Part shown: in pieces, positions 47,501 through 63,784 of the stretch
Position numbering within the stretch: the stretch's first letter is position 1
Layout of the letters: the number at the start of each line of letters is the position of its first letter
Assembly (NCBI RefSeq): GCF_027257155.1
Contig: NZ_JAPWDU010000009.1
Coordinates: forward strand, 62,001-126,000
DNA from: Cerasicoccus sp. TK19100
GTDB lineage: Bacteria > Verrucomicrobiota > Verrucomicrobiia > Opitutales > Cerasicoccaceae
Direction: 5' to 3'
DNA length: 64,000 nt
The notes under the pieces: generated by a model
The model's database searches: none
Told to the model about the DNA's origin: nothing
The model's input: the letters and a program-made list of their open reading frames with translations, nothing else
Made by a program: the position numbers and the translations under genes

Positions 47501-48233
47501 GCTCCGCCATGAGGGGAATTTGAACGCAACGCCGGCCATTGTCACCAGCGCGTTGATTTACGTGATGCGTTTGTTGGTGAGAGAAGATATACCGCTCAAT
47601 GAAGGTTTGTTCGCTCCGCTGGACTTGCATTTGCCAAGGTGCTTTTTGAACCCGGAGTTTCCGCAAGATTCGCGTGAAGCACCCGCCGTTGTGGGGGGTA
47701 ACGTGGAGACGAGTCAACGTGTGGTGGAGTGCTGTTTGCGGGCATTGGGCGTGGTAGCCGACAGCCAGAGCACGATGAACAATTTTATCTTCGGCAACGA
47801 TGCAGTCAGCTACTACGAAACGATTGGTGGAGGCGCGGGCGCGGGTGATGGCTTTGACGGATGCTCGGGAGTCCACACGCACATGACCAATACCGCGATC
47901 ACCGATCCGGAAATATTTGAGCGACGTTACCCGATGCGCTTGTGGCGTTTCGGTTTACGTGAGCGTTCTGGCGGTGCCGGATATTGGCGCGGTGGAGACG
48001 GCCTCGTGCGTGAGGTGGAGTTTTTGGCACCAATGTCGGTGTCGTTGTTAACGCAGCATCGCGAGCGCGGCCCGATGGGTGCCAAGGGCGGCGGAGATGG
48101 CATGCCTGGCGAGCAGAAGCGGATTCTGCCCGGTGGCAATTATGAATTCCTTGCGTCATGTGTGGATTATGAGGCGCAGCCAGGCGAGCGGCTTTGTATT
48201 GAAACACCGGGCGGAGGCGGTTACGGAGTCTGA
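44529..48233 (+). CDS. 5-oxoprolinase / hydantoinase A-B fusion
   Basis: This 1234-residue single-chain member of the OPLAH family couples ATP hydrolysis to the opening of 5-oxoproline to glutamate. The N-terminal HyuA-like actin-fold part contains AADTGGTFTDLIG, RLGTTRGTNALLERKGA, MGGTSTDVSR and GGAGGMHA. The C-terminal HyuB-like part, from about residue 720, contains NPGFGGSHLPDV-like HPGFGGSHLPDVT and ends GGGGYG. The ATG at 44529 is favoured over the upstream TTG. The HDAC-family gene starts the base after its stop, indicating a shared transcript. Confidence 0.9.
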   Translation: MAEPWQIAADTGGTFTDLIGVDPRGRPHRAKVLSNASLRAMVAGKFGGGWVHLESSWSFPDRFFCGFYATFPGGESFRVMEYRARDKAMLLESRGPLPPGSLIELSTGEEAPILGARVLTRTPGDEPLPPIELRLGTTRGTNALLERKGARTAFFVTRGFADLLTIGDQRRPDLFALDIRRPKPLPCEVVEVEGRLDAEGVEIEPLNMGQALWDKVNAARSAGCQVAAIALLHSYQNPAHEQALGNFLREAGFEVVTLSSELAPFIKLLPRAQTAVVDAYLSPIMNSYLNQVQGSLGNGRLRIMTSAGGLSAREDFRAKDSLLSGPAGGVVGAVAAGKQAGFSRVIAFDMGGTSTDVSRSEGAFDYRSSHTVGDASILAPALKIETVAAGGGSICGWDGRKLFVGPDSAGAHPGPACYGAGGPLTVTDVNLLLGRVLPAAFSIPVYPDKAARAAEEIAREVGIERDELLQGFLRIANERMAAAIETISVREGYNPQDYALVAFGGAGGMHACAIADELNIDTVLFPPHAGVLSAYGIQQAVVERIGQRQIMQPLSAVTGSIETWLEDIATELRAAMQQEGMTGADLVVRHRRVALRLAGQESSITIDYANDLADAYQREYESVFGYFPEGREVEVVGLEVAVSTKPPALDEETFAAEPTVLCSQGADISTWSRGEIPVGALVRGPAIVHDDTCTLFIEANWSAVMGTHGTLRLLREGERSRDEALNESIARELFTNRFRQVVDEMGVQLERTAVSTNVKERLDFSCALLDAQGRLIANAPHIPVHLGALGMCVRTVAQHMEMLPGDVVVTNHPGFGGSHLPDVTVITPVFVDGKLIAYVANRAHHAELGGIRPGSMPPNATCLAEEGVVIPPTKIFEAGDNCLCRLEAMLRESPYPSRAVADNLADINAQLAANRRGGTQLLAMIADYGTDAVAHYMQALLDFSEQALRDQLKALPSGVLSSVSTLDDGAEINVSMEVADGRIRVDFANTTLRHEGNLNATPAIVTSALIYVMRLLVREDIPLNEGLFAPLDLHLPRCFLNPEFPQDSREAPAVVGGNVETSQRVVECCLRALGVVADSQSTMNNFIFGNDAVSYYETIGGGAGAGDGFDGCSGVHTHMTNTAITDPEIFERRYPMRLWRFGLRERSGGAGYWRGGDGLVREVEFLAPMSVSLLTQHRERGPMGAKGGGDGMPGEQKRILPGGNYEFLASCVDYEAQPGERLCIETPGGGGYGV
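45160..45174. repeat. CTTTG-N5-CAAAG palindrome, copy 3
   Basis: CTTTGTGGGACAAAG lies in the 5-oxoprolinase gene and is followed by TAAA. Confidence 0.8.
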
Positions 48234-49620: not shown

Positions 49621-50010
49621 ATGGCTACGAAAAAGAAAACAACTAAAGTAGTGAAAAAGGCCGCCACCAAGAAGGCTGCCAAGAAGCCAGCCGCCAAGAA
49701 GGCGGTTGTTAAGAAAAAGGTCGCTGCCAAGAAGGCCGTGAAAAAAGTCGCTGCCAAGAAGGCGGTAAAGAAGGCTGCTAAGAAAGCGGTCAAGAAGGCA
49801 TCCGCAAAAAAGGCTGCGGCCAAGAAAGCCGTGAAAAAGGCAGCCAAGAAGGCGGTTAAAAAAGCCGTTAAGAAGAAGGTCGCTAAAAAGGCCGTCAAGA
49901 AGGCTGCGGCAAAGAAGGCCGTGAAAAAGGCACCGGCGAAGAAAGCCGCCGTGAAGAAGGCACCCGTCAAAAAAGCGAAGAAGCCCAAAAAAGCGAAAAA
50001 GAAGAAATAA
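49621..50010 (+). CDS. Histone H1-like lysine/alanine-rich protein
   Basis: This 129-residue protein is composed almost only of Lys, Ala, Val and Pro in repeated KKA and KKAVKK units. It resembles the C-terminal tail of eukaryotic H1 and chlamydial Hc-type proteins. It probably binds and condenses DNA. There is no globular domain. The preceding bases AAAAGGA provide a plausible ribosome site. An HDAC-family gene lies upstream on the same strand. Confidence 0.9.
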   Translation: MATKKKTTKVVKKAATKKAAKKPAAKKAVVKKKVAAKKAVKKVAAKKAVKKAAKKAVKKASAKKAAAKKAVKKAAKKAVKKAVKKKVAKKAVKKAAAKKAVKKAPAKKAAVKKAPVKKAKKPKKAKKKK

Positions 50011-51504: not shown

Positions 51505-51990
51505 ATGCCCATTGAGATCGAAAGAAAGTTCATTGCCGATAAGGAGAAACTTCCAGCGGCGAAAAAGAGCACCCGCCTTGAGCAGGGGTATATCGACCGC
51601 GACAAGGCGACGGTTCGTGTGCGAGTCAGTGGTGACGAGTGCTTCTTGACGATTAAGGGCGCTGTCTCCGGCAAGAGCCGTTTAGAGTACGAATACGCCA
51701 TTCCGCTGAACGAGGGGCGCGAGCTGATTCAGCTGCTTTGTGGCAAACCGGTCATTGAGAAAACGCGCCACTTGATCGACCACGGTGGACATACTTGGGA
51801 GGTGGATGTGTTCGATGGGGAGAACGCCGGTTTGGTGGTGGCTGAGGTGGAACTCGACGCCGAAGACGAGCGGGTGGATTTGCCTGATTGGGTTTCGCGC
51901 GAGGTGACTTCGGAGCGAAAGTATTCCAACGCCTCATTGGCCGAAAAGCCTTTTAGCGCCTGGACTGAGGAGGAGAGAGCGGGCTCATGA
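51505..51990 (+). CDS. CYTH-domain triphosphate tunnel protein
   Basis: This 161-residue CYTH-fold protein starts with the diagnostic EIERK motif in MPIEIERKFIADK. Alternating charged strands TVRVRVSGDECFLTIKG and LEYEYAIP line the metal-triphosphate tunnel. Such enzymes hydrolyse inorganic triphosphate or nucleoside triphosphates, or act as short polyphosphatases. It overlaps the next gene by 4 bases (ATGA). Confidence 0.9.
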   Translation: MPIEIERKFIADKEKLPAAKKSTRLEQGYIDRDKATVRVRVSGDECFLTIKGAVSGKSRLEYEYAIPLNEGRELIQLLCGKPVIEKTRHLIDHGGHTWEVDVFDGENAGLVVAEVELDAEDERVDLPDWVSREVTSERKYSNASLAEKPFSAWTEEERAGS

Positions 51991-53639
51991 AGACTTCTTC
52001 CGGATTTAGCATCCCGATGAGGCAGGAGGGTCGCAATCTGTTGCGCGATATCAAGACCAAGCTTTCCCTGCTCGGCGGTGGTAAGGAACGCCGTCGCTGG
52101 AGCATCCTGGATACCTTTGACTGGCGTTTGCTGTCAGCCGGCACGGTGCTGATGCGTGATCGCAAAGTGTTCGAACTGCACAATTGCGTGGGCGATGAAC
52201 TACTGGCACGTGAAGAATTTACAACCTCGCTTAAATCGCTTTACGGCGATGATTTTCCGAAGGGAACTTTGCATGACAAAGTAAGCGGCCCGATCTCGAT
52301 TCGCGCAGTAATGCCGCGTGCGGAATTTATTCGTGAGGTTGAGTGCTACCGCCTGGAAAATAAGGACGGCAAAACGACGGTGCGCCTGGAGATGGAAACG
52401 CTATCCCGACCAGTCCCAAGTGGTAAGCCCATGCCGTTTCAAAAGTTACTTCGCGTGGTCGCACTCAAAGGGTATGAACGTGATGCCGATGCGGCGTCGC
52501 GAACGATAGCTTCGCTCGGCTTGGAGGCGCATGCGGATACGCGCCACTATGCCTTTGCTGCGCTGGAGGCATCTGGCGTGACGCCGTTTGACTACACCTC
52601 GAAGATTAAGCAATCGTTGTCGCCGGAGTTGACTGCGCGCGAGGCGTGCCGGCAAATTCTGGCCGCTTCGCGCGATCAAATGGAGGCCAACATCAGTGGT
52701 ATGCTCGCGGATATCGACTCCGAGTTTCTGCACGACTTTCGCGTGGCACTGCGGCGGACGCGTTCCCTGCTGCAATTGGTGCGCGGAGTTTACCCGGAGG
52801 AACTGGTGGATAAGTTTAAGCTTGAGCTAGGGGCGGTGATGCGGGGCACCAATCGTCTGCGCGACTTGGATGTTTATTTGCTAGAGCAGGATGCTTACGC
52901 CAAGCTTTTACCAAAGGGGTTGCGCCCCGGCTTGGATTTGTTTTTCGCCGATCTGAAGACGGAACGCAAAGCAGCCTTTAAGAAATTTACCCGTGAGTTT
53001 CAGGGCGCTGGCGTAACCCGGAAGCTGAAGGCTTGGAACGCATTTTTGGAGAAGGGGGCGGCTCAAGCATACGAGGAATGTCCGACCGGTAATGCGCCAG
53101 TCAAGGTGTTGGCGAACCAGTTGCTGATGAAGCGCTTTAAGCGAATCATTAAAGACGGACGTAAAATCAGCAACGAAACGCCGGATGAAGCGGTGCACGA
53201 TTTGCGCATCCAGTTTAAAAAATTCCGCTACCTGCTGGAGTTTTTTAAATCGCTCTACGATGCCAAGGAACTGGATTTTCTCATCAAGCGATCGCGCAAA
53301 ATTCAGAATGTGCTCGGTGCATTTAACGATGTGTGCGTCCAGCAGGAGACGATCACGCATTACTTGACTGCGGTCGATTTGAAGCGCGCCGAGGCGGTTC
53401 AACTCTGTGCTTCGCTGGGCGCTCTGGTCGCCGAGCTTGAACGTAAGCGACTCGCCGAACGTAAGAAGTTCAAGGCGGCCTTTGCGACGCTAGATCATCC
53501 CAGTGTGCTTGCCGTTTCCGAGCATCTGTTTGCGCCAAGCATTGAGGCTCCGCGGGAAACCGAGTCGGTAACGCCAGTTAGCAAACCGTCAGCGAAGAAG
53601 AGAACCAGTAAGCGCGCACAGAAGAAACCAGCATCATGA
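51987..53639 (+). CDS. CYTH-like plus CHAD domain protein
   Basis: This protein has 550 residues. Residues 1-190 look like a degenerate CYTH half (LDTFDWRLLSAGTVLMRD); the EIERK signature is absent. Residues about 205-520 form two CHAD repeats, with the first HDFRVALRRTRS at 249-260 and a second VHDLRIQFKKFRYLLEFF near 401-418. CHAD helices carry conserved His/Arg/Lys and bind polyphosphate granules. The C-terminus is a basic Lys/Ala/Arg tail. It starts in the ATGA overlap with the CYTH gene and ends in an ATGA overlap with the ParA gene. Confidence 0.88.
   Translation: MKTSSGFSIPMRQEGRNLLRDIKTKLSLLGGGKERRRWSILDTFDWRLLSAGTVLMRDRKVFELHNCVGDELLAREEFTTSLKSLYGDDFPKGTLHDKVSGPISIRAVMPRAEFIREVECYRLENKDGKTTVRLEMETLSRPVPSGKPMPFQKLLRVVALKGYERDADAASRTIASLGLEAHADTRHYAFAALEASGVTPFDYTSKIKQSLSPELTAREACRQILAASRDQMEANISGMLADIDSEFLHDFRVALRRTRSLLQLVRGVYPEELVDKFKLELGAVMRGTNRLRDLDVYLLEQDAYAKLLPKGLRPGLDLFFADLKTERKAAFKKFTREFQGAGVTRKLKAWNAFLEKGAAQAYEECPTGNAPVKVLANQLLMKRFKRIIKDGRKISNETPDEAVHDLRIQFKKFRYLLEFFKSLYDAKELDFLIKRSRKIQNVLGAFNDVCVQQETITHYLTAVDLKRAEAVQLCASLGALVAELERKRLAERKKFKAAFATLDHPSVLAVSEHLFAPSIEAPRETESVTPVSKPSAKKRTSKRAQKKPAS
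52267..52281. repeat. CTTTG-N5-CAAAG palindrome, copy 6
   Basis: CTTTGCATGACAAAG lies in the CYTH-CHAD gene and is followed by TAAG. Confidence 0.8.
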
Positions 53640-54385
53640 AGGTATTAGCAGTTTATAATATTAAGGGCGGGGTCGGCAAGACTGCTGCGTCGGTAAACCT
53701 CGCGTATCTTTCTGCGCAAGCAGGCAACCGGACGCTTTTATGCGACTTGGATCCGCAGGGCTCTTCCTCGTATTACTTTCGGGTTCGGCCGGATAAAAAA
53801 CATGGCCCGAAGCGTCTGTTGCAAGGCGGCAAAAAACTCGACCGCGAGATCCGTGAATCGGATTACCCGAATTTGCATTTGTTGCCTTCAGCGATGGCTT
53901 ATCGTAATCTCGATATCGAGCTCGATCACTCGAAACGCTCGAAGAAGCGGCTGAAAGATTCGCTCAAGAGTTTGGTGGGCGAGTATGATGTGGTGGTCAT
54001 TGATTCGCCGCCGAATGTTACTTTGCTCAGCGAGAATATTTTCCGCGCGGCTGATGTAATCCTGGTGCCCGTTATTCCCACGACGTTGTCTATGCTCACC
54101 TACGGGCAAATCATCGACTTCTTTAAAAAGGAAGGACTGAAGACGCAAAAACTGCGCGCGTTCTTCTCCATGGTGGAGCGCCGCAAAAAAATGCACCAGG
54201 ATACGATGGTGCAAATGCGTAAAAAGGATAAGCGTTTCTTGAAACCGGAGATCCCGATGGCGGCTGCTGTTGAAAAAATGGGACTGCACCGGGAGCCGCT
54301 TTTTGGCTTCGATTCTCGCTCCGTGGCGGCCAAGGCCTACCGTGATCTGTGGGACGACGCCTCGATTTTGCTCAAAGAGGCGTAA
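53636..54385 (+). CDS. ParA-family ATPase (orphan)
   Basis: This 249-residue deviant-Walker ATPase has NIKGGVGKTAASVNLAYL at the N-terminus, DLDPQGSSS, and VVIDSPPNVTLLSEN as Walker B. Members without ParB position cellular cargo such as carboxysomes or chemoreceptor arrays. The gene is coupled by a 4-base overlap to the CYTH-CHAD gene, hinting that polyphosphate granules or the CHAD protein are its cargo. No ParB or parS gene is visible nearby. Confidence 0.88.
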   Translation: MKVLAVYNIKGGVGKTAASVNLAYLSAQAGNRTLLCDLDPQGSSSYYFRVRPDKKHGPKRLLQGGKKLDREIRESDYPNLHLLPSAMAYRNLDIELDHSKRSKKRLKDSLKSLVGEYDVVVIDSPPNVTLLSENIFRAADVILVPVIPTTLSMLTYGQIIDFFKKEGLKTQKLRAFFSMVERRKKMHQDTMVQMRKKDKRFLKPEIPMAAAVEKMGLHREPLFGFDSRSVAAKAYRDLWDDASILLKEA

Positions 54386-54460: not shown

Positions 54461-54538
54461 GGTGGATGTAGCTCAGTTGGTTAGAGCACCGGTTTGTGGT
54501 ACCGGGGGTCGCGGGTTCAAGTCCCGTCTTCCACCCCA
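54461..54538 (+). tRNA. tRNA-His (GTG anticodon)
   Basis: This 78-nt cloverleaf has the extra 5' G(-1) opposite C73 typical of tRNA-His, the GTG anticodon at 54496-54498, a GTTCAAG T-arm, and an encoded CCA end at 54536-54538. One T-T mismatch lies in the acceptor stem (positions 6-67). A TTGACA element at 54415-54420 may be its promoter. Confidence 0.95.
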
Positions 54539-54610: not shown

Positions 54611-55075
54611 TTGCTGGTCGTTGCCGTGGACAAAGAATTTTTATCTTGGGCTGAATTTGGCGAGCTCGTTTCCAAGCTGACGGCTGCGGTAACTGAGCTG
54701 CATGAGCAGCGTCCGTTCGATCGAATTGTCGGAATCAGCCGTGGAGGGCTACCAATCGGCGTTAGCTTATCGCACCGACTTAATCTGCCGTTTACGCCGG
54801 TTGAGGTAAAAAGCTACAAGGCGGACAACAGCCAGGGGGACATTATCTTGGACACGCCCCAAGAAGTACTGTCGCGTTGTCGGGGGCATGTTTTGCTAGT
54901 GGATGATCTGGCCGACAGTGGCAAAACGACAGACTTTTTAATGAGTCACCTGCGCGAGTTGACGCAGCCGGAGATCACCATTGCGACGCTGTATTATAAA
55001 AGAACGTCGATCGTGAAGCCGCAATTTTACGTCGAAGAGACGGCGAAGTGGATTGTCTTTCCCTGGGAGGCGTAA
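54611..55075 (+). CDS. Purine-type phosphoribosyltransferase
   Basis: This type I phosphoribosyltransferase has up to 154 residues. The PRPP-binding loop LLVDDLADSGKT and the preceding FDRIVGISRGGLPIGV are typical of the Gpt/xanthine-guanine or hypoxanthine group. It attaches a base to PRPP. The start is uncertain: TTG 54611 or GTG 54626. It leads a plus-strand operon with formamidase, DUF3891 and RidA genes. Confidence 0.85.
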   Translation: MLVVAVDKEFLSWAEFGELVSKLTAAVTELHEQRPFDRIVGISRGGLPIGVSLSHRLNLPFTPVEVKSYKADNSQGDIILDTPQEVLSRCRGHVLLVDDLADSGKTTDFLMSHLRELTQPEITIATLYYKRTSIVKPQFYVEETAKWIVFPWEA

Positions 55076-55092
55076 TCGCTTATTGTTGAAGT

Positions 55093-56040
55093 ATGGAGCA
55101 CTTTTTGGATCGATCGGTAGTGGTGAATCGGTGGAATCGCGATTATCCGCCGCGGTTAACGATTAAGCCCGGCGATACGATTGCTTTCGAAATGCGGGAC
55201 TCCAGTGACGGGCAAGTGCAGCCTGATATGTCGGCGGAGGATTTTGAAAAGATCGACAAGATGCGAATTCATGCGCTGACGGGGCCGGTCTGCATCGAGG
55301 GGGCCGAACCCGGGGATCGGCTGGTTCTCGACATTTTGGAATACCAGCATGAGGGGTGGGGCTGGAGTGGCTTGGTCGACGGGCTCGGCTTACTGGCGGA
55401 AGATTTTTCCGGTCCGTTTTTGCAGACTTGGCGTTTCGAGAATGACGTGACGAAGTCGATGCCAGGTTTAACGATTCCGCTTCGTCCGTTTTGCGGGATC
55501 ATCGGCGTTCAGCCAGCCGAAGTTGGTGAATTTCGGACGCGGCCACCAGGCGTGTTCGGGGGCAACCTCGATGTACGGCATTTGGTGGCGGGTAGTCGCT
55601 TGCATTTGCCGGTGCAAATTCCGGGCGCTGGCCTGTGCGCGGGTGACGCCCATGCAGCGCAGGGAGACGGCGAAGTTTGCCTGAACGGTATGGAGGCACC
55701 CATGACGGTGCGCATGAAAGTAAATTTGGTTAAAGACAGTCCGCTACCGGGGCCATACCTGGAGTGCCCGGGTGAGCTGGAGCCGCGGGAATTTGCTGAG
55801 CATGGATACCATGTTTTTATCGAGTCGGATGCAGACCCGCGTGAAGCCAGTAAGCGTGTGGTTCGCCGCGCGATTGATTACTTGGTCAAGCGGCTGGGGC
55901 TCTCACGGGAGCAGGCATACGTGACGTGCAGCGTCGTGATCCGCCTGAAGATCAGCCAGCTGGTCAACGCGCCGACGATGACGATCTCGGGCTATTTCCC
56001 GGAGGCGGTTTTTGATGAAAGATCGGAGGTGCTGCCGTGA
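55093..56040 (+). CDS. Acetamidase/formamidase family protein
   Basis: This 315-residue FmdA_AmdA family protein hydrolyses short amides such as formamide to the acid and ammonia. Conserved segments are GPVCIEGAEPGDRLVLDIL, GIIGVQPAE, GGNLDVRHLVAGSRLHLPV and GAGLCAGDAHAAQGDGEVC. The last two match the DxR and GDxHxxQGDGE signature carrying metal ligands. It is the second gene of the phosphoribosyltransferase operon. Confidence 0.92.
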   Translation: MEHFLDRSVVVNRWNRDYPPRLTIKPGDTIAFEMRDSSDGQVQPDMSAEDFEKIDKMRIHALTGPVCIEGAEPGDRLVLDILEYQHEGWGWSGLVDGLGLLAEDFSGPFLQTWRFENDVTKSMPGLTIPLRPFCGIIGVQPAEVGEFRTRPPGVFGGNLDVRHLVAGSRLHLPVQIPGAGLCAGDAHAAQGDGEVCLNGMEAPMTVRMKVNLVKDSPLPGPYLECPGELEPREFAEHGYHVFIESDADPREASKRVVRRAIDYLVKRLGLSREQAYVTCSVVIRLKISQLVNAPTMTISGYFPEAVFDERSEVLP

Positions 56041-56864
56041 TTCGCATTGAGGAGAAAGATGCTTGGCTGTTGCTCGGTCATTGTGCGCACGCTAACTTGG
56101 CGGGTGAGTTTGCGCGGCATTGGAAGAACGATCTTTTTCTGCCACCAGAACCATTTGCGCATATTTTGGATGCCGTGGCGCGGCATGATGACAGCTGGGT
56201 GGCTGTCGACGCCATGCCCGTGCTGACGCCCGAGGGTAACCCTTCGGCATTTTCCAGTGAGCTGGTCGGGACGTATGATGCTTTCGAGGAGATCGACTTG
56301 GCTGATTATTTGCGGGTGCGCGGCGAGGCGACGGAAAAGGCGGCTGATCGCGATCCCTATGCGGCGATTTTGATCTCCATGCACACCGTAAATTTGCTGA
56401 CGGAACAGGCGGACTTGAGCACCTTGACGCCGGAGGAGGCGGAAGTTCACGCAGCGTTTATTGAGGGGCAGCTTCAGCGGCAGCAGGCGTTGATTGACCA
56501 GTTGAGAAAAACCGATTTTCCACAAAGCGCACTGGAGGAGTCGTCGCTGCGTCGCGGCTTTGAGTTTCTGCAAGCGTGCGATAGCTTGTCGCTGCTGGTG
56601 GGCGTGGATTTCGCTGAAACGTCAACACTGCGGCATGCCCAGGCAACGCGAAACGGCGGTAAAGTCGTCATCGATTTTACCCCAATGGGGGATGGTGTGT
56701 TTGTGCTGGACCCATATCCATTCGATGAAGTTGGCCTTAGCTTTTTGATCCCGTATGTGCGCGTGCCCAAGGCGGCGACGTCTTGCTTGGCTGATTTTCA
56801 AGCGGCCTTTCTTAACGCGGAGAGCGTTAAGAAGAAGATAACCTTTATTGCTAAATCTCAATGA
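56037..56864 (+). CDS. DUF3891 family protein
   Basis: This 275-residue protein fits DUF3891, with HANLAGEFARHW and AVARHDDSWVAV giving several His/Asp residues suggestive of an HD-type metal site. It starts at GTG 56037 inside the stop of the formamidase gene and shares a 4-base overlap with RidA. Function unknown. The HD-like pattern hints at a metal-dependent hydrolase. Confidence 0.78.
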   Translation: MIRIEEKDAWLLLGHCAHANLAGEFARHWKNDLFLPPEPFAHILDAVARHDDSWVAVDAMPVLTPEGNPSAFSSELVGTYDAFEEIDLADYLRVRGEATEKAADRDPYAAILISMHTVNLLTEQADLSTLTPEEAEVHAAFIEGQLQRQQALIDQLRKTDFPQSALEESSLRRGFEFLQACDSLSLLVGVDFAETSTLRHAQATRNGGKVVIDFTPMGDGVFVLDPYPFDEVGLSFLIPYVRVPKAATSCLADFQAAFLNAESVKKKITFIAKSQ

Positions 56865-57325
56865 GTAGCCCGGAGAGTAGACTTGAGGCCTTAAATATTG
56901 TGCTACCAGCGCCGCCATCTCCCGGCGGAAATTACCTGCCGTATCGGCGCGAGGAACGCCTGGTATTTTTGGCGGGTGTTATTAGCGCATCGGCGACTGC
57001 GGGTGAGTATTTAGGGCAGGTAGGTAATGAGCTTTCGCTTGAGGATGGTTACGGCGCAGCGCGTCTTTGTGCGCTTAATGCGCTCGCGGTTATGCGGTCG
57101 ATCACGGGCTCGCTCAACGATGTGGAGAAGCTGCTCTACGTGGGCGGATACGTGAATGCAATTCCTGCCTACGGCCAAAGCCCATCAGTCATCAACGGCG
57201 CATCGGATCTCTTTGTCGAAATTTTTGGCGACGATGGGAGGCATGCGAGGGCCGCAGTCGCGGTCGCTGGTTTGCCGAAAAATGCCGCCGTGGAAATTCA
57301 GGTAAATCTCAAACTTAAAGCTTAG
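56861..57325 (+). CDS. RidA family protein
   Basis: This 154-residue protein of the YjgF/YER057c/UK114 superfamily has LPAPPSPGGNYLPYRR at the start. LNALAVMRSITGSLNDVEKL and HARAAVAVAGLPKNAAVEIQ are the conserved core with the ligand Arg and a C-terminal Glu. RidA members deaminate or hydrolyse reactive enamine/imine intermediates. Its stop codon overlaps that of the convergent creatininase gene. Confidence 0.9.
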   Translation: MSSPESRLEALNIVLPAPPSPGGNYLPYRREERLVFLAGVISASATAGEYLGQVGNELSLEDGYGAARLCALNALAVMRSITGSLNDVEKLLYVGGYVNAIPAYGQSPSVINGASDLFVEIFGDDGRHARAAVAVAGLPKNAAVEIQVNLKLKA

Positions 57326-58074
57326 AGCAAGGTCTGGATTTGCCGATGTAGCATATCGGCAACCGCGTTGTGCCATGCTTCGCCATCCTTCGCGCTCGCT
57401 TGAGTGGCATCGCCGAGAGTTCCAGAGGGCGTGAAGTCGGCGGTCTTCCAAGCGAAGGTTGCGGGTGCGTTCTCAGGGGCGATGAGTCCTGCGGGAAAAC
57501 GTTCGTCGATCCAGTGGCAGTCTGCCTTTTTCCTATCAACAAGCTCTGGGTGAATGGCCAACATTAGCGAAGTTTCATACTGCCCCGCGTGAATACCGAA
57601 GCGCTCCTCGCGCTCGCTCAATTCTGTGGCCGGATGCGATGATAGAATACCGATCTCGACGGTTGTGGTTTGGGCAATCTCCAACGCGGTGGTACGCAAT
57701 ACGGGTGAGTTTCCACCGTGAGTGTTCAGGACGGCGATGCGGCGAAATCCCCACTGTTCCAATTGCTGAACTGTTCCGAGCATTTGGTCGCGCAGCGATT
57801 CGGCGGAGATACTGAGCGTGCCGGGGAAGCCGTCGTGCTCGTTGCTCTTACCGACTAAAATCGGTGGCGCGATCCAGACCGGATCGTTATTGTCTAGGCG
57901 CGTTAACACGCGCTTTAAAAATGCGTGACCGAGAAGTGAATCGACGCCAATCGGCAGGTGGGGACCATGCTGCTCGATGGCCCCCGTTGGCAAGAGCACC
58001 AGCGATTTCGGATCGCGCGCGGCATCCGCGATTTGCACCGGAGTCATGGACAGAAGCTGACGCTCAAGGCTCAC
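57322..58074 (-). CDS. Creatininase-family amidohydrolase (intact active site)
   Basis: This 250-residue protein has the creatininase fold. Metal ligands are intact: Glu34 and His36 in GAIEQHGPHLPIGVD, Asp45, His119 in NTHGGN, and Glu167 in HAGQYETS. Family enzymes open creatinine, but the fold also includes archaeal ArfB, which removes formate from formamidopyrimidine nucleotides. It starts at GTG 58074, overlapping the previous stop by 4 bases. It is the last gene of a six-gene operon that also holds a GTP cyclohydrolase II-like gene, which makes a deformylase role plausible. Confidence 0.9.
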   Translation of the reverse strand: MSLERQLLSMTPVQIADAARDPKSLVLLPTGAIEQHGPHLPIGVDSLLGHAFLKRVLTRLDNNDPVWIAPPILVGKSNEHDGFPGTLSISAESLRDQMLGTVQQLEQWGFRRIAVLNTHGGNSPVLRTTALEIAQTTTVEIGILSSHPATELSEREERFGIHAGQYETSLMLAIHPELVDRKKADCHWIDERFPAGLIAPENAPATFAWKTADFTPSGTLGDATQASAKDGEAWHNAVADMLHRQIQTLL

Positions 58075-58622
58075 GATTGTGCCTCCGGTGTATAGGGTGT
58101 GATGGGCGGAAAATTCAATGCTTCGCGGAGAATGTTTGCCAGCGATGGTTGGCTTGATTGCGCGTCGGGATCCAGGAATAGATTGAAGACCTGCATGTCG
58201 GTTTGGATGCGTAACTCGCGAGCGATGGTATCTAGCCAGTCTCCGAGTGCGGAGTTGCTGTGGACAAAGGCGATCTTCGCAACGTTTGAGCGATGGACTG
58301 ATTGGGCGATTTCCATGATGGTCCGTGATGCATTGGGCAGTGAAGTTCCGAACGCTACGCCAGGCACGATGTTCGGAACATGCCGGAAAGCAGGCAGGAT
58401 GCGAATGCCGCCCGCCGCCACATCGATTTCATGAAGCGCGTGGTTCAGTGATTGCCATAGGCTTTGCTCCGCAAAGTTTAATGGCTGGTCAGGCTTATTG
58501 GCGAGCAATGCGCAAACGGGCTGAATCGCCATCTTGGGAAGCTGTAACGAGTCCGCTTGAAACGCCGGCCATGGCAGCGTGTGCCAGGCTAAATGATCAT
58601 TAATTGGTATCAGTTTCGTCAT
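58071..58622 (-). CDS. Degenerate creatininase-like protein
   Basis: This 183-residue protein resembles the central part of a creatininase-family protein (GVAFGTSLPNASRTIMEIAQ, then KIAFVHSNSALGDWLDTIAR), aligning with the NTHGGN region of its neighbour. It lacks the N-terminal EQHG metal motif and the C-terminal HAGxxETS motif. It retains one His (121). It overlaps the intact creatininase and the amidohydrolase genes by 4 bases each. It may be a non-catalytic partner or an eroded paralogue. The family call is an inference from pattern and position. Confidence 0.6.
   Translation of the reverse strand: MTKLIPINDHLAWHTLPWPAFQADSLQLPKMAIQPVCALLANKPDQPLNFAEQSLWQSLNHALHEIDVAAGGIRILPAFRHVPNIVPGVAFGTSLPNASRTIMEIAQSVHRSNVAKIAFVHSNSALGDWLDTIARELRIQTDMQVFNLFLDPDAQSSQPSLANILREALNFPPITPYTPEAQS
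58462..58476. repeat. CTTTG-N5-CAAAG palindrome, copy 7
   Basis: CTTTGCTCCGCAAAG lies in the degenerate creatininase-like gene. Confidence 0.8.
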
Positions 58623-59848
58623 GCTTTCCGCTGGTGGATGGTGTGCCCGTTGCGCACGGTTTGCCGAATGTCAGCTGGTTGGCATCGGGTGACGATGGTT
58701 GCCGCGCAGTGGTGGGAGGTGCGTAGCGTCGGCGACGAAAAATCGAATTCAACAAACGAAGCGGGCAAGCCAACCGACAACTCGCCCGGCAGTTCGCTGC
58801 CCCATCGCGTGAGGGCTACATTGCTGGTCACCATTTTTAAAGTAACCGTTGGGTCGATCTGATTCTGATTGCCGAACTGCGAGCGTGCGAGTTTGTAGGT
58901 GAAGTCCAGCTCTGCCATCAGGTTGGCCCCATTGAGCATCGCGTTGTCTGTGCCCAACAGCAGTGGCACGCCAGCCTGAAGGAGCTTCGCCACCGGGGGC
59001 AACGGGAGCCCAAGTGTGGCGTTTGCGCGCGGGTTGATTGCCACAGGAATGTTAGCGCTTACGATACGTGCAATCTCTTCGTCATTGGCGACGGTTAGAT
59101 GGACGATTAAATCGGGCTGAAGAATTTCGATCGCGCGTTGCAGGTCGCCGAGTTCGGTTCGCGCAAGGCTGGTGTCGCGATAGGATGCATCTTCCAGGCA
59201 ATGAATGGTCTTGGCTTTGTTAGCCTCCGTGCAAATGGAGGCGATGGTTTGCCAAGCCGTATCGGTCTGGTCGTTCATCGTGCTTTCGGAGAAGCCATCG
59301 GACTCCTGCAAAATCTCATGCAGTTCCGCGATGAATGTATCGGGCAGTGGTTCCTGATTTTTCTCCAACTGCTCAGCGGAAAAAGGGACGCCGTCGAACT
59401 GGCTTAGGATTACCGAGTGCACACCGACTGCTTGCGCGGTTTCGCGCAATCGGCGGCAGCCCTCAAGGCCTTGCTCGCGAAAGTCGAAGTGGGCGATTGT
59501 TCCCGATGCAGCCATTGCTTGAAGATAGCCCTTCATCGCGTCCAGGTGTTCATTCCTTGGTACCGTAGCGAGTGATTGGTATTTGAATCCGTTAGGCCGG
59601 AAGAAAGCCTCGGCGAGGGTGAGGCGCGTTGCGGCATCCGCCAGAAAACAGTCGCCCACATGGGTATGGCCATTAACAAAGGCTGGTGCGATGACCGGGC
59701 GTTTGCCAATGGGCTGAGGTGCCTTGCCTCTGATGTCCATCCGCGTGATTCTACCGTCCTCATACTCGAATGAAGAGCACAGGAACGGCTCCAGTTCCGG
59801 GCCTGATAAAACCACGCAGTCATTGATTCGTCCGGAGCGTTCAGTCAT
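58619..59848 (-). CDS. Amidohydrolase (cytosine/guanine deaminase-like)
   Basis: This 409-residue amidohydrolase-superfamily TIM barrel has likely metal ligands His61 and His63 in VNGHTHVGD, a His/Glu pair in IHCLED, a His in LIVHLTVAND, and the Asp in LGTDNAMLNG. The pattern fits cytosine deaminase, SsnA and atrazine-chlorohydrolase relatives that deaminate heterocycles. It overlaps amidase by 8 bases and the degenerate creatininase gene by 4. In this operon it is a candidate for deaminating a pyrimidine. Confidence 0.88.
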   Translation of the reverse strand: MTERSGRINDCVVLSGPELEPFLCSSFEYEDGRITRMDIRGKAPQPIGKRPVIAPAFVNGHTHVGDCFLADAATRLTLAEAFFRPNGFKYQSLATVPRNEHLDAMKGYLQAMAASGTIAHFDFREQGLEGCRRLRETAQAVGVHSVILSQFDGVPFSAEQLEKNQEPLPDTFIAELHEILQESDGFSESTMNDQTDTAWQTIASICTEANKAKTIHCLEDASYRDTSLARTELGDLQRAIEILQPDLIVHLTVANDEEIARIVSANIPVAINPRANATLGLPLPPVAKLLQAGVPLLLGTDNAMLNGANLMAELDFTYKLARSQFGNQNQIDPTVTLKMVTSNVALTRWGSELPGELSVGLPASFVEFDFSSPTLRTSHHCAATIVTRCQPADIRQTVRNGHTIHQRKA

Positions 59849-61133
59849 CTTGAGTCGTCGTGGTGAGCAGTTGAAATAAAGACGGTAAAATTTGCCGCCA
59901 ACGGCTAGTGGGCATTAAGCACTGAATGCCGATGGTTGTCGAGGCCGACGATGGCAGCGGAATGGTTAGCACGGGAAGTCCGGCGAGGCTGGCCGGCGCT
60001 GTTTGCCGGAGCAGTTCCTCGCGCTGGACCTCGGTCATCGTTTGTTTCGGCGTGGGAGATTCGGTAACTGGGAGTAGCGCAATATCGCAGTGTTGAAACA
60101 TCTCCTCCAGGTCTTGACAGATCGATTGACGGACGGCGTGCGCTTCGGAAATCTCTTCGCTGGTCCATGCTTCAGCGCGGAGAATTCGGCGTAGCACCGC
60201 CGGGTCATATTGCTTGCGGTGGTTGCGTATCCACGGCCGGTGTAGTGCATAGGCTTCGATACTTTGCAATACAGAGAAAGCCTTGGATACTTGTGGCGCG
60301 AAGAGTTGATGACGCTCGTGCCGCGCATCGATGCAGCCGTTAAATTGATCGCCAATGCCTTTCAACGTAGTATCGCTCATTGGGCCAATGGCGATCACGC
60401 TCAGAGGCTTACTTTCGTTGCTCGGGACCAAGTCGAGTAATGCCAGTGATGCCTGGGCGAGGGTGCTCAGTTTCTTGGTCATCCATCCGACCGTGTCGAA
60501 TGACGGGGCGAGTGTGATGCAGCCTTTGCGCGCCCATTCGTTGGGCGGTAAGCGTAGGCCATAGAGCCCGCAAAATGCTGATGGAACGCGAATCGATCCA
60601 CCGGTATCCGTGCCAAATCCGATGTCCGCGAACCCTTTGGCAACGGCCCAAGCGCTGCCACTACTGGAGCCTCCTGAGACCAACTGCGAGTCGCCGGGAT
60701 GCGGGCAATTTCCACAGTGAGGGTTGGCTCCATCCAGCCCGTAGGCGAACTCGTTCATCTGTGTTTTACCAAGTATTGCCAAGCCCTTTGCTTTGATCGT
60801 TTGCACGAGTGGGCCATCCGCATGTGGCCCGGGGCGTACGGTTTCCAGGAACACTGACGAGGCGTTCGTGGGGTATCCGGCCAAGTCGAAGTTGTCTTTG
60901 AGAACGCACGTTAGCCCGCTCAATGGCTTGTTGGCAATGGCTGCATGTTCGGCGGACTTAATTGCTTCGATGCGTGGCGTTATCGTTGCAAAAACCGCGC
61001 GCTTGGTTGCTGCATCGAGGCTATCGACTTGGCGGTAAAAAGTCTGAATGGAATCGTGGTTGCGAGCGTGGGTAGTCGACTGGCTGCTGGCGGCCATTGC
61101 GCCCTTACCGTGGTGCTCGCGATCAACGCTCAC
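59841..61133 (-). CDS. Amidase signature family protein
   Basis: This 430-residue amidase has the Ser-Ser-Lys triad: Lys79 in CVLKDNFDLAG, Ser156 in SGGSSSGSAWA, and nucleophile Ser180 in GTDTGGSIRVP. Relatives include GatA, allophanate hydrolase and indole-acetamide hydrolase. It starts at GTG 61133, in a GTGA overlap with the SIS gene stop. It could cleave a linear carboxamide or ureido product of the amidohydrolase step. Confidence 0.88.
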   Translation of the reverse strand: MSVDREHHGKGAMAASSQSTTHARNHDSIQTFYRQVDSLDAATKRAVFATITPRIEAIKSAEHAAIANKPLSGLTCVLKDNFDLAGYPTNASSVFLETVRPGPHADGPLVQTIKAKGLAILGKTQMNEFAYGLDGANPHCGNCPHPGDSQLVSGGSSSGSAWAVAKGFADIGFGTDTGGSIRVPSAFCGLYGLRLPPNEWARKGCITLAPSFDTVGWMTKKLSTLAQASLALLDLVPSNESKPLSVIAIGPMSDTTLKGIGDQFNGCIDARHERHQLFAPQVSKAFSVLQSIEAYALHRPWIRNHRKQYDPAVLRRILRAEAWTSEEISEAHAVRQSICQDLEEMFQHCDIALLPVTESPTPKQTMTEVQREELLRQTAPASLAGLPVLTIPLPSSASTTIGIQCLMPTSRWRQILPSLFQLLTTTTQDD

Positions 61134-62188
61134 TCGGTGGCATCCTTTAGGGTGAATGGTTGGTTGAGCGCATAGCCTTCGCCATCCAGCCCCTTGCCCG
61201 GCCAGTCGATAAGGTTTGCGCCAGAGCGCCGTGCGGCTTCGGCGACGATCTGGTTTAGCACGCTCTCGTAGTAGAAGATTGCGAATGGCTCGGGTAGTGG
61301 CGACGTGATCACGTGTGCCGTATTGATTCGGTTGAACAGGTCAGACGTGTCGTTAACGAGTGCTTGCTCAGCCGCTTCGGCGCTGGTGAATAGCCAACGG
61401 TGGGCCGGTGTTACGATTTCGGCTTGAAAAGGACCGTGTGAATAATCGAACAGATCACGCACGCGCGGCGCGGGCCGAAAGATGGTTTCGAGCACTTTGG
61501 CGCTCAAATTTTGCGCGTAAAGCTGAGTCGGATTGGCGAAATAAAAATCTACGCCGGCCAAGAGCTCATCCGCCAAAGTGTGGATCGATTGTTGAGCTCG
61601 GAAGTCCGCTTGGATCGCCGTAAGAATCTCGGGCTTCGGTAGCTTTTTATTACCAATGTTGGCGGCGATTATCAATGCCGTTGCCATTGCGCAGACCGGG
61701 CCGATGACGCGCGGCAAAATTTCAAATTCGTTTTCCAGCGGGTGTCGAACGATTGTCGCGCCTTGCTTGGCCAAGGTTTGCAGTAGCTCGGCTCGGTCAC
61801 CTTTGCCGGCTTGGGATTGGCCTTGCTCTGTTGATGATGTCACCAGTGTAAGGCCTGAAAACTGCCTGCGCTGGGCAAGCGCAATCTGAGCGTTTGGGGC
61901 CAGCCCTTGTGTAAACACAACCAAGTGGCGAGCATCACGACGCTGCGCTGGCATGCTGTAAAACTGATTCAGCGGGAGGAATTCGGCGCGAACGGGTGTC
62001 CACAGATTGAGCAAGCGCACGAGGTAGCGGGCCGCAGCTTCAGAGCTTCCCATGCCGGTTGCCACGACGCCTCTGGATGCGGCAAGAGGTTCGAGCGATG
62101 GCAATTCCAGCCCGAGCGTTTGATCCAAATACTCCGGAATCTGTGCAAGCCTTTGGCTTAGCGTTTCGTGACCCAAAGTGTCCGCCAT
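61130..62188 (-). CDS. SIS-domain protein
   Basis: This 352-residue double SIS-type protein has VVATGMGSSEAAARYLV near residue 41 as the phosphosugar-binding loop, and a second half with DYSHGPFQAEI and TSDLFNRINTAHVITSPL. It lacks a glutamine amidotransferase domain, unlike GlmS. It probably binds a phosphosugar such as ribose-phosphate or an aminosugar phosphate. It begins 3 bases after the cyclohydrolase-like gene stop. Confidence 0.75.
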   Translation of the reverse strand: MADTLGHETLSQRLAQIPEYLDQTLGLELPSLEPLAASRGVVATGMGSSEAAARYLVRLLNLWTPVRAEFLPLNQFYSMPAQRRDARHLVVFTQGLAPNAQIALAQRRQFSGLTLVTSSTEQGQSQAGKGDRAELLQTLAKQGATIVRHPLENEFEILPRVIGPVCAMATALIIAANIGNKKLPKPEILTAIQADFRAQQSIHTLADELLAGVDFYFANPTQLYAQNLSAKVLETIFRPAPRVRDLFDYSHGPFQAEIVTPAHRWLFTSAEAAEQALVNDTSDLFNRINTAHVITSPLPEPFAIFYYESVLNQIVAEAARRSGANLIDWPGKGLDGEGYALNQPFTLKDATE

Positions 62189-62191
62189 ATG

Positions 62192-63784
62192 CTAAACCTC
62201 GGACTCCAGGAAGATCCAGTTGACGACGTTTAGCCCGCTGCGGTGAAGAGCCTGCGCGTATTCGTTTTTCTGGACCAAGCTGTTGGGGGAGTTCATCACC
62301 ATCTGAATATTCAGACTCGGTAGGTGGCTCTTCAACACTTGAAACACGACTTCGTAATCGCGTTGGTCGAAGGGGATGCCGAGCTTACGGTAAGAGTCGC
62401 GTGTGCCGCGACTGAGGTTCTGCTCCATCAGCATGCGGTCGATGGCAAACGCGCCAAAGCCGGCCCCGCGACCATCCTGATAAACGAGGACCACTGCGCC
62501 GCTTCCGTAGCGGACGATGTGTTGGATCGCACGGTTGTACTTTTCTTTGTTGTCGTCCACCTTGACGGGGAAGCGGTTCAGGATCGACTCACTTTGAATG
62601 CGGACAATCGGGCTCTCGTAGGTCTTGGGATTGCCGTGGGTGAGCACGACCAAGTCATCACCCGTGACGACATCATAATAGACATGGACGCGAAACCAGT
62701 AGGGCTCAATCAGCAGGCCGCGAAGGGGATTACCGCCCTCGGTTTGGTCCAGTGCCTTCATCGACTTGGGATCGATTTTGAGCATAATGCGATTGCCGCG
62801 CAGAGACTCAAATTTCTTCACCAACGGATGGATGCCCTGGGTGTATTCGTCGATCTCGTGGTTGCCTAAAATGCCGCGCAATGTCTCGTAGCTAACGACG
62901 ATCTCGTCGTCGATCGGGCGCACTGGCAGCAAATAGCTGGCCATGTAAATGAAGCGCTCGGCCTGCTTGAGGCGACTGGGCTTGAAGGGGACGACTGGTT
63001 CCGGCAGCTTGATGTCGGCCAGGGGAATTTCGTTGGGTCGGGAAAGGGTGTGGCCGGATTCTTTCTTGGACTTCAGGTAGAATAAATTGAATGGACCCGG
63101 CTCAAACTCGATGGTTTCGGCGCGCGCTACCTTTAGGCCATTGCGCTCCATGGCGGCCACTTTATCCGGGTTGTTCGTCAGGATGACCCACTCGGCCTCA
63201 ATGCCAAGAATATGCACGATGTCGGCAATGTTCTGATACTGGCGGTAGTCTTTCTTTAAACCGAGCAGGCGGTAGGCGTCGAAGGTGGACAGTGTGTCGC
63301 CACTGGCTTGAACGAGCATGCGGTCGCGCGCCTTGGCCGAATAGCCCACGCCGCGGCCTTCTTGCAAAAGGTAAAACAAGACGCCTTGGCCACTCTTGGC
63401 GATTTTTTCCATCGCGCCTTCGAGCTGTTGCACGCAGTCGCAGTCACAGCCACCAAGTGTCTCACTGGTCACGCAGCTGGAGTGCAGGCGCGTGTAGAGG
63501 AGGTCGGCTTTCTCAACATCACCAAAGGTTAGCGCGATGATATAGCCCTTGTGAATGATGTCTTGAAAAATGCACGCCCGGAAGTCGCCAAATCGCGTGG
63601 GCACAGCGGTGTGACCAATGAAAACCGTGGCCCCGTGGACCGGGTGATCATAGTAATTCCCGGCTTCCAACTTGGAGGCTTGCTCGGCGTAGCGCTTGAG
63701 TGATTCCGCCAAGTTACTTGGATCTATTGGTTGCGGGTCGCCGGATTCAGGTTCGGTGGTGGTAGCATTGGTGGAGCGACACAT
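62192..63784 (-). CDS. Tandem GTP cyclohydrolase II-like protein with altered catalytic tyrosine
   Basis: This 530-residue protein has two RibA-like modules and no DHBP synthase domain. Module 1 (about 50-245) keeps zinc cysteines 104, 115 and 117 (RLHSSCVTSETLGGCDCDC), QEGRGVG, the Asp179/Arg181 pair, and TNNPDK. The E. coli Tyr105 position is Arg155 (KARDRML). Module 2 (about 330-525) keeps DGRGAG, Arg450 at the tyrosine position, and Asp473/Arg475, but the zinc cysteines are gone (Ser400). Ordinary GCH II is about 200 residues. The Tyr change suggests GTP turnover may stop at the formyl-pyrimidine product. Residue assignments come from hand alignment. Confidence 0.82.
   Translation of the reverse strand: MCRSTNATTTEPESGDPQPIDPSNLAESLKRYAEQASKLEAGNYYDHPVHGATVFIGHTAVPTRFGDFRACIFQDIIHKGYIIALTFGDVEKADLLYTRLHSSCVTSETLGGCDCDCVQQLEGAMEKIAKSGQGVLFYLLQEGRGVGYSAKARDRMLVQASGDTLSTFDAYRLLGLKKDYRQYQNIADIVHILGIEAEWVILTNNPDKVAAMERNGLKVARAETIEFEPGPFNLFYLKSKKESGHTLSRPNEIPLADIKLPEPVVPFKPSRLKQAERFIYMASYLLPVRPIDDEIVVSYETLRGILGNHEIDEYTQGIHPLVKKFESLRGNRIMLKIDPKSMKALDQTEGGNPLRGLLIEPYWFRVHVYYDVVTGDDLVVLTHGNPKTYESPIVRIQSESILNRFPVKVDDNKEKYNRAIQHIVRYGSGAVVLVYQDGRGAGFGAFAIDRMLMEQNLSRGTRDSYRKLGIPFDQRDYEVVFQVLKSHLPSLNIQMVMNSPNSLVQKNEYAQALHRSGLNVVNWIFLESEV

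Follow-up and report, generated by a model that had tools for sequence, protein, structure and literature searches.

We analysed a 64,000-nucleotide stretch of the genome of Cerasicoccus sp. TK19100 (bases 62001-126000 of contig 9; genome 5.07 Mb, 97% complete), hereafter the window, which carries towards its right end ten genes arranged as two convergent operons (Table 1). On the minus strand, a tandem GTP cyclohydrolase II (GCHII)-like protein, GCH2, is separated from SIS by a 3-base gap, and the genes that follow overlap (SIS-AMI by 4 bases, AMI-AHY by 8, AHY-CRNd and CRNd-CRN by 4 each). On the plus strand, PRT and FMD are 17 bases apart, FMD-DUF3891 and DUF3891-RID each overlap by 4 bases, and the two operons share 4 bases at 57322-57325. 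These ten open reading frames and their tight spacing, as described in the initial annotation of this DNA, were all confirmed from the coordinates. Eight of the ten proteins have direct Pfam support; SIS and CRNd have no Pfam match. The closest match to the tandem protein in the named collection comes from Cerasicoccus maritimus NBRC 105382 (91% identity; assigned to phylum Verrucomicrobiota, order Puniceicoccales), and in the locus of this nearest named relative (L026) homologues of the full set of ten lie next to one another. We consider it probable, at roughly 0.6, that these genes form the core of a hitherto undescribed pathway that breaks down purines at the level of the nucleotide.

Table 1. 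Genes of the two convergent operons, with positions in the window
Gene	Description	Length (aa)	Position	Strand	Support
GCH2	tandem GTP cyclohydrolase II-like	530	62192-63784	-	Pfam PF00925, 185.1 bits, 2 stretches
SIS	double SIS-domain, phosphosugar isomerase/deglycase-like	352	61130-62188	-	AlphaFold model and Foldseek
AMI	amidase-signature hydrolase	430	59841-61133	-	Pfam Amidase, 200 bits
AHY	amidohydrolase-superfamily deaminase/hydrolase	409	58619-59848	-	Pfam Amidohydro_1
CRNd	degenerate creatininase-family partner of CRN	183	58071-58622	-	Creatininase matches of orthologues
CRN	creatininase-family hydrolase (candidate deformylase or ring amidase)	250	57322-58074	-	Pfam Creatininase, 222.1 bits
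PRT	purine-type phosphoribosyltransferase	154	54611-55075	+	Pfam Pribosyltran
FMD	FmdA/AmdA-family amidase (candidate deformylase/formamidase)	315	55093-56040	+	Pfam FmdA_AmdA, 206.6 bits
DUF3891	DUF3891 protein	275	56037-56864	+	Pfam DUF3891, 145.6 bits
RID	RidA/YjgF-family (candidate enamine/imine deaminase)	154	56861-57325	+	Pfam YjgF_endoribonc, 67.6 bits

The ten-gene set is a real unit that is inherited together. In a draw of 288 Verrucomicrobiota genomes, GCH2 (E<=1e-40) is present in 15, and AHY (E<=1e-50) and DUF3891 (E<=0.001) are present in 14 each. The AHY-bearing and DUF3891-bearing genomes are the same, namely the 15 GCH2 genomes minus one (G113), and neither gene occurs in the other 273 (hypergeometric p for co-occurrence with GCH2 of 7e-23, ignoring kinship). 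The 14 set-bearing genomes span nine genera and five families (f1, f11, f14, f22 and f42), the last of which lies outside the window's order; families f1, f11, f14 and f22 also hold genomes without the set. Within the window's genus, the set is found in G000 and G003 and not in G001 and G002.

We also assembled a panel of all 18 GCH2-positive genomes and 20 hand-picked GCH2-negative ones (no match at E<=1e-40; the 288-genome counts are unaffected by how these negatives were picked), and counted the genome-wide co-occurrence of SIS, AHY, DUF3891, CRN and FMD with GCH2. One of the negatives (G012) has a single-domain GCHII at 35% identity. SIS is present in 17/18 positives, AHY in 16/18 and DUF3891 in 15/18, each against 0/20 negatives; close CRN homologues (E<1e-50) are found in 16/18 against 0/20, with weaker paralogues in five negatives, and FMD in 15/18 against 3/20. 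The set is kept genome-wide even where its genes are on different contigs or separated by hundreds of kilobases. In 9 of 15 genomes, DUF3891 is found no more than 12 kb from GCH2, and AHY and GCH2, where they share a contig, can be 0.47, 0.72 or 1.09 Mb apart (G169, G298 and G124, respectively); in G121 the distance is 4.17 Mb as numbered, or about 0.56 Mb if the 4.73-Mb contig is circular. Split sets re-form as a second operon, with the order DUF3891-AHY-FMD-RID in L192 and L193 and RID-FMD-CRN-CRNd-AHY-DUF3891 in L194, and much of the remaining set lies on such a second operon in L192-L195. The initial annotation had made its pathway idea depend on conserved linkage in relatives; we find both linkage and genome-wide co-occurrence to be strong.

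The neighbourhood of GCH2 in relatives points to nucleobases, mostly of purine type. We examined 80 relative loci (L026-L105) with flanks of up to 10 kb per side, in which genes were called by our own script and then clustered; one representative per named cluster was compared with Pfam, and six representatives with NCBIfam. These loci overlap the genomes above (for example L026 with G003, L099 with G186 and L098 with G169), and locus and genome counts are not independent. Among members of the set, SIS was called near GCH2 in 48 loci, RidA in 21, amidase in 16, DUF3891 in 12, AHY and creatininase in 8 each, FMD in 6 and PRT in 3, and an FAH-family gene was called in 6. A TonB receptor was called in 23 loci. 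The nucleobase/purine genes, among which PRT is also counted, comprise a PF00860 nucleobase permease (26 loci), NUP (18), an adenosine deaminase family (18), an HPRT-like protein (14), an adenine deaminase (8) and a phosphorylase-superfamily nucleosidase (7). At least one of these nucleobase/purine genes is found in 46/80 loci, or 34/80 when the permease and nucleosidase are excluded; 31/80 have at least one gene of the hydrolase set, and 21/80 have both kinds. The nucleobase/purine share of genes changes with distance from GCH2, from 10% within 2.5 kb to 18% at 2.5-5 kb, 7% at 5-7.5 kb and 3% at 7.5-10 kb. A single locus, L032, brings together AHY, CRNd, CRN, FMD, amidase, RidA, GCH2 and SIS, without DUF3891, along with nucleosidase, HPRT-like, NUP, permease, adenosine deaminase, adenine deaminase and TonB receptor genes. 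A Proteobacteria-titled match on a 5-kb contig (L100:3539-4966), with 37% identity over the tandem protein, may be a misplaced bin.

These purine neighbours, as well as an FAH-family hydrolase fused to the amidase, are visible only in relatives and not in the window, and they change how the locus is to be read. The initial annotation had proposed a GTP-derived pathway, for nitrogen salvage or a specialised metabolite. Its linked gene set, with a GCHII-like enzyme that would open a purine nucleotide and with deformylase-type and phosphosugar-type partners, is supported; the uptake, nucleoside-cleaving and deaminating neighbours make purine catabolism via a phosphoribosyltransferase a better description than a specialised metabolite.

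GCH2 matches Pfam GTP_cyclohydro2 in two stretches, far above the cut-off of 23.3 bits, and passes the broader subfamily model PRK00393 (182.2 vs 148), yet falls below the NCBIfam RibA equivalog domain TIGR00505 (157.5 bits vs a cut-off of 205.85); its solved relatives in the PDB include 2bz0, 4i14 and 4rl4. The alignment of the N-domain with E. coli RibA (2bz0) is free of gaps over the stretch that starts at the zinc site and takes in the Tyr105 position. Across 74 proteins (that of the window and one of at least 480 aa from each of 73/80 loci), Cys104, Cys115, Cys117, Gln120, E142-G-R144, Asp179, Arg181 and Lys208 are invariant, and Thr203 is kept in 73. GCH2 thus shares with RibA the zinc cysteines, the EGR motif and equivalents of Asp126/Arg128 and Thr149/Lys154, which we take to have the same functional roles. 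It differs from RibA in two respects. The position of E. coli Tyr105 is occupied by Arg155 in 74/74 proteins, and the C-domain, a second GCHII domain, is degenerate, with no Cys at the zinc-cysteine positions 400, 411 and 413 (aligned by eye) in any of the 74. The C-domain nonetheless appears to be under selection, since DGRGAGFG (437-444), Asp473 and Arg475 are invariant in 74/74; this zinc-less half is perhaps a nucleotide-binding or subunit-interface domain. In Streptomyces coelicolor, a GCHII homologue that has Met in place of Tyr105 reportedly halts at the formamidopyrimidine (FAPy) nucleotide. By analogy, the GCH2 family, with Arg at this position, may do the same, and this would account for the creatininase and formamidase linked to it. 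The window's genome also has a separate GCHII gene (G000:C4:297060, a 385-aa frame), so that riboflavin synthesis probably does not depend on the tandem protein.

The AlphaFold model of SIS (predicted local distance difference test score, pLDDT, of 93.4) has a predicted double SIS fold, with Foldseek matches to the GlmS isomerase domain and NagB-II (best E of 2.3e-11); SIS deaminases and deglycases release phosphosugars from aminosugars. The solved relatives of AMI include biuret and allophanate hydrolases. In L026 (12646-14667), the amidase is fused to an FAH-family domain in one 673-aa frame (FAA_hydrolase 251 bits and Amidase 186 bits); FAH genes also adjoin the amidase in L099 and L206 and belong to the same cluster in L192. 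The AMI of the window has no FAH domain, and one FAH homologue lies elsewhere in its genome (G000:C6:449117). We rejected FAH as a marker of the pathway, as the family occurs in 34/38 panel genomes, so that only its position and fusion count. In AHY, residues H61, H63, H216, E219, H250 and D301 are invariant in 9/9 proteins, presumably forming the metal pattern of amidohydrolase deaminases, and its solved relatives include atrazine chlorohydrolase, methylthioadenosine/S-adenosylhomocysteine (MTA/SAH) deaminase and 8-oxoguanine deaminase. By its sequence, CRN appears to be a member of the creatininase superfamily (Pfam cut-off of 31.3), with the presumed functional residues E34, H36, D45, H119 and E167 invariant in 9/9; it falls below the creatininase equivalog TIGR04448 (100.4 vs 235) and the ArfB model NF033501 (19.6 bits vs 180). 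Orthologues of CRNd in L206 and L196 score 49.8 and 31.2 bits against Pfam Creatininase, of which only the first passes, and the CRNd-CRN pair recurs in relatives' loci.

On the plus strand, PRT has as its best solved relatives 1vdm and 4z1o, both deposited as purine phosphoribosyltransferases, and remains below every NCBIfam cut-off (best xanthine phosphoribosyltransferase, 52.6 vs 138). In other lineages, an HPRT-like protein adjoins GCH2 or SIS. The occurrence of two types of purine phosphoribosyltransferase in this place argues that entry dependent on phosphoribosyl pyrophosphate (PRPP) belongs to the pathway. FMD falls below the formamidase equivalog NF045496 (158.4 bits vs a cut-off of 500). 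Elsewhere, a genome with no tandem protein has an FmdA-family match and a match to MoCoBD_1, the xanthine-dehydrogenase-type domain, about 1.2 kb apart (G006:C37:397163-399987), hinting at a wider role of FmdA-family amidases in purine breakdown. For DUF3891, His15, His18, His50-Asp51-Asp52, His116 and Asp182 are invariant in 12/12 proteins, among them candidates (His18, His50-Asp51 and Asp182) for the H..HD..D motif of HD-domain hydrolases. Its model (pLDDT 90.0) has no Foldseek match at E<=0.001; a VIA second look gave weak matches led by HD proteins (the HDOD protein 3hc1, Z 6.0, root-mean-square deviation 4.3, 155 aligned), with further weak matches to the HD-GYP protein 9rbz, a small alarmone hydrolase, PhnZ and phosphodiesterases. 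DUF3891 is thus possibly a divergent HD-type metal hydrolase, and the weak structural likeness could also reflect a mere common arrangement. The family is not mentioned in any paper of the one open-licence library that we searched.

From the gene content, linkage and co-inheritance that we observed, together with the nucleobase/purine context, the conserved residues and the predicted SIS fold, we infer a substrate, products, an order of steps and roles for CRN, FMD and DUF3891 as follows. In many relatives, neighbouring enzymes would release and deaminate purine bases. A purine base and PRPP would then be joined into a 6-oxopurine nucleotide by PRT, or by the HPRT-like enzyme in other lineages. 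The substrate of GCH2 is most likely GTP, with ITP, XTP or a monophosphate as alternatives; its zinc-bearing N-domain would open the imidazole ring, probably to a formylamino-pyrimidine (FAPy) ribonucleotide. The formyl group could be taken off by CRN, FMD or both, and SIS would act on the ribosylamine to free the phosphosugar. For a pyrimidine derived from guanine, AHY could remove the 2-amino group. AMI, with CRN/CRNd, would open and trim the pyrimidine ring, and the resulting enamine or imine would be hydrolysed by RID. A Rid protein with a comparable task is RutC, a 3-aminoacrylate deaminase that acts in uracil use (PMC8113886). In lineages with FAH in the cluster, the FAH-family enzyme would finish the breakdown, and DUF3891 may act as an HD-type metal hydrolase on an early phosphorylated intermediate. 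We would put at even odds this fuller scheme, in which a purine is made into a nucleotide, whereupon a two-domain GTP cyclohydrolase breaks it down to a formamidopyrimidine nucleotide, by hydrolysis and without xanthine dehydrogenase, urate or oxygen, and in which DUF3891 would find its first function. We found no description of such a pathway in one library of open-licence papers, in which subscription papers are largely missing.

Several observations weigh against purine catabolism at the nucleotide level. None of the ten window proteins reaches an NCBIfam equivalog cut-off, so that the substrate proposed for each enzyme is putative. The labels of the neighbours are similarly broad: the permease representative matches only PF00860, a family with non-purine members, and no NCBIfam model; the representatives of the HPRT-like, adenosine deaminase and adenine deaminase clusters each fall below the cut-off of their best NCBIfam match (90 vs 150, 116 vs 217 and 356 vs 473 bits, respectively); and for the PNP_UDP_1 representative, the model passed is that of MTA/SAH nucleosidase (80.5 vs 73.8) and not that of a purine phosphorylase. 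These weakened labels are the reason for our stricter count of 34/80 loci. Such neighbours could be plain salvage genes, and spending GTP on catabolism is costly. SIS is uncalled in 32/80 loci (10 of which end at most 1.2 kb after GCH2), and AHY, CRN and FMD are close to GCH2 in only the few loci counted above, because these genes often sit elsewhere. Three genomes hold only part of the set: G113 has GCH2 and CRN only and lacks SIS; G018 has GCH2 and SIS without AHY, DUF3891, CRN or FMD; and G004 has GCH2, SIS and AHY without DUF3891, FMD or CRN. In a subgroup of five loci (L081, L087, L088, L090 and L091), adenosine deaminase, NUP and TonB receptor genes are divergent from GCH2, a CTP synthase (by eye) lies downstream and no SIS was called; in these five, GCH2 may function independently of the other genes. 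Finally, we tested for mutual exclusion with xanthine dehydrogenase and did not find it, as MoCoBD_1 occurs in 4/18 GCH2-positive and 7/20 GCH2-negative genomes (Fisher p 0.48). Across the phylum, therefore, the pathway is no clear substitute for xanthine dehydrogenase. In the window's own genome (G000, 97% complete) MoCoBD_1 has 0 matches; uricase and allantoinase were not searched for.

The tandem protein and the hydrolases might instead serve purine salvage and the housekeeping of the nucleotide pool, removing purine nucleotides that are damaged (ring-opened, FAPy or oxidised) and not feeding on purines. Amidohydrolase relatives such as 8-oxoguanine deaminase and guanine deaminase, the weak likeness of DUF3891 to HD nucleotide hydrolases and the one MTA/SAH-like nucleosidase cluster would suit this role, but it would not need the adjoining TonB receptor, adenosine deaminase, NUP and permease, and the absence of the set from 273/288 genomes of the phylum is hard to reconcile with it; we regard it as unlikely. 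A specialised metabolite made from GTP, in the way that GCHII-like enzymes serve for some pyrimidine- or purine-like antibiotics, with the hydrolases tailoring the pyrimidine, strikes us as decidedly unlikely. GCHII homologues do serve in specialised metabolism, and the compact operons and patchy spread (15/288 genomes) are as expected of such a cluster. However, no synthetic, tailoring or export enzyme family is found among the ten proteins, the partners in relatives are permeases and nucleoside- or base-degrading families, and the set, although frequently divided among separate loci, is kept genome-wide, which is unusual for a metabolite cluster.

The resemblance to known GCHII-based pathways could also mean that the cluster belongs to one of them. 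URC-type catabolism of pyrimidines, with the tandem protein acting on UTP, seems quite improbable. GCH2 scores 27 bits against PRK07198 (cut-off 403), which we take to be the URC1-type model, and we rejected URC membership on this score; there is no DUF1688 among the ten proteins, and the linked phosphorylase, deaminase and phosphoribosyltransferase families are of purine type. In favour of it, URC1, a GCHII homologue, acts on UTP (a UTP cyclohydrolase is reported by Zhang 2021, cited in PMC12507026), and the RutC precedent in uracil use (PMC8113886) would accommodate RID. It is very improbable indeed that the cluster supplies precursors of riboflavin, deazaflavin or pterin by another route. 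The separate GCHII gene led us to reject riboflavin synthesis; the cyclohydrolase aside, no rib or fol families are found among the ten; and we know of no place for the amidase, AHY or SIS in any of these routes. Such a route would draw on the pairing of a GCHII with a creatininase-annotated deformylase, as in the BrbF route, or with a separate deformylase, as in the archaeal route (both PMC9478397).

Nucleotide-level purine catabolism, our preferred reading, has counterparts in known systems. In the URC pathway, uracil enters by a phosphoribosyltransferase, and the ring of the resulting nucleotide is then opened by a GCHII homologue as a catabolic step. The cluster shares this phosphoribosyltransferase entry, ring opening and catabolic use, and differs in its purine-type partners, in a tandem protein with a zinc-less second domain and in the addition of SIS, CRN, FMD, AHY and DUF3891; we found no URC4 (DUF1688) among the ten proteins, a search that did not extend to the rest of the genome. 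Both the URC pathway and UTP cyclohydrolase are cited in PMC12507026. In Sinorhizobium and Brucella, the creatininase-annotated BrbF takes the formyl group off the FAPy nucleotide on the way to riboflavin (PMC9478397). By family annotation, the cluster likewise has a creatininase-type protein beside a cyclohydrolase; unlike BrbF and ArfB, CRN is paired with a degenerate CRNd in a catabolic setting, and its score on the ArfB model is low. The known bacterial purine routes (oxidative via urate and allantoin, reductive, and by xanthinase) act on free bases and mostly use xanthine dehydrogenase, as described in PMC12507026. The proposed pathway would likewise yield nitrogen and carbon from purines, by means of PRT and a cyclohydrolase, in a genome without a MoCoBD_1 match.

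Around the two operons, we noted several further features. Just past the right end of the window, 51 bases upstream of GCH2, lies a LacI-type regulator (Pfam; L004:337-1401); no such regulator is labelled upstream of GCH2 in L026 or L207, where the genes were not family-scanned. It is followed (region L004:337-9438) by large proteins that by eye resemble alginate/heparin lyase-type polysaccharide enzymes, and a sugar-use locus thus seems to abut the minus operon. On the other side, about 6 kb before the plus operon, a 1234-aa protein (44529-48233) has by eye a hydantoinase/5-oxoprolinase-like start. Between them are a lysine/alanine-rich repetitive 129-aa protein (49621-50010), by eye similar to histone H1-like proteins of bacteria, overlapping genes (51505-54385) for what appear by eye to be a CYTH protein, a CHAD-type protein and a ParA-like ATPase, and then a tRNA-His (54462-54538).

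The proposed pathway is directly testable in C. maritimus NBRC 105382, which carries homologues of the whole ten-gene set. If it is borne out, DUF3891, the tandem GCHII and the creatininase pair would each gain a role, and a redox-free route of purine breakdown at the nucleotide level would stand as the purine counterpart of URC. It would also explain how some Verrucomicrobiota might use the nitrogen of nucleic acids without xanthine dehydrogenase.

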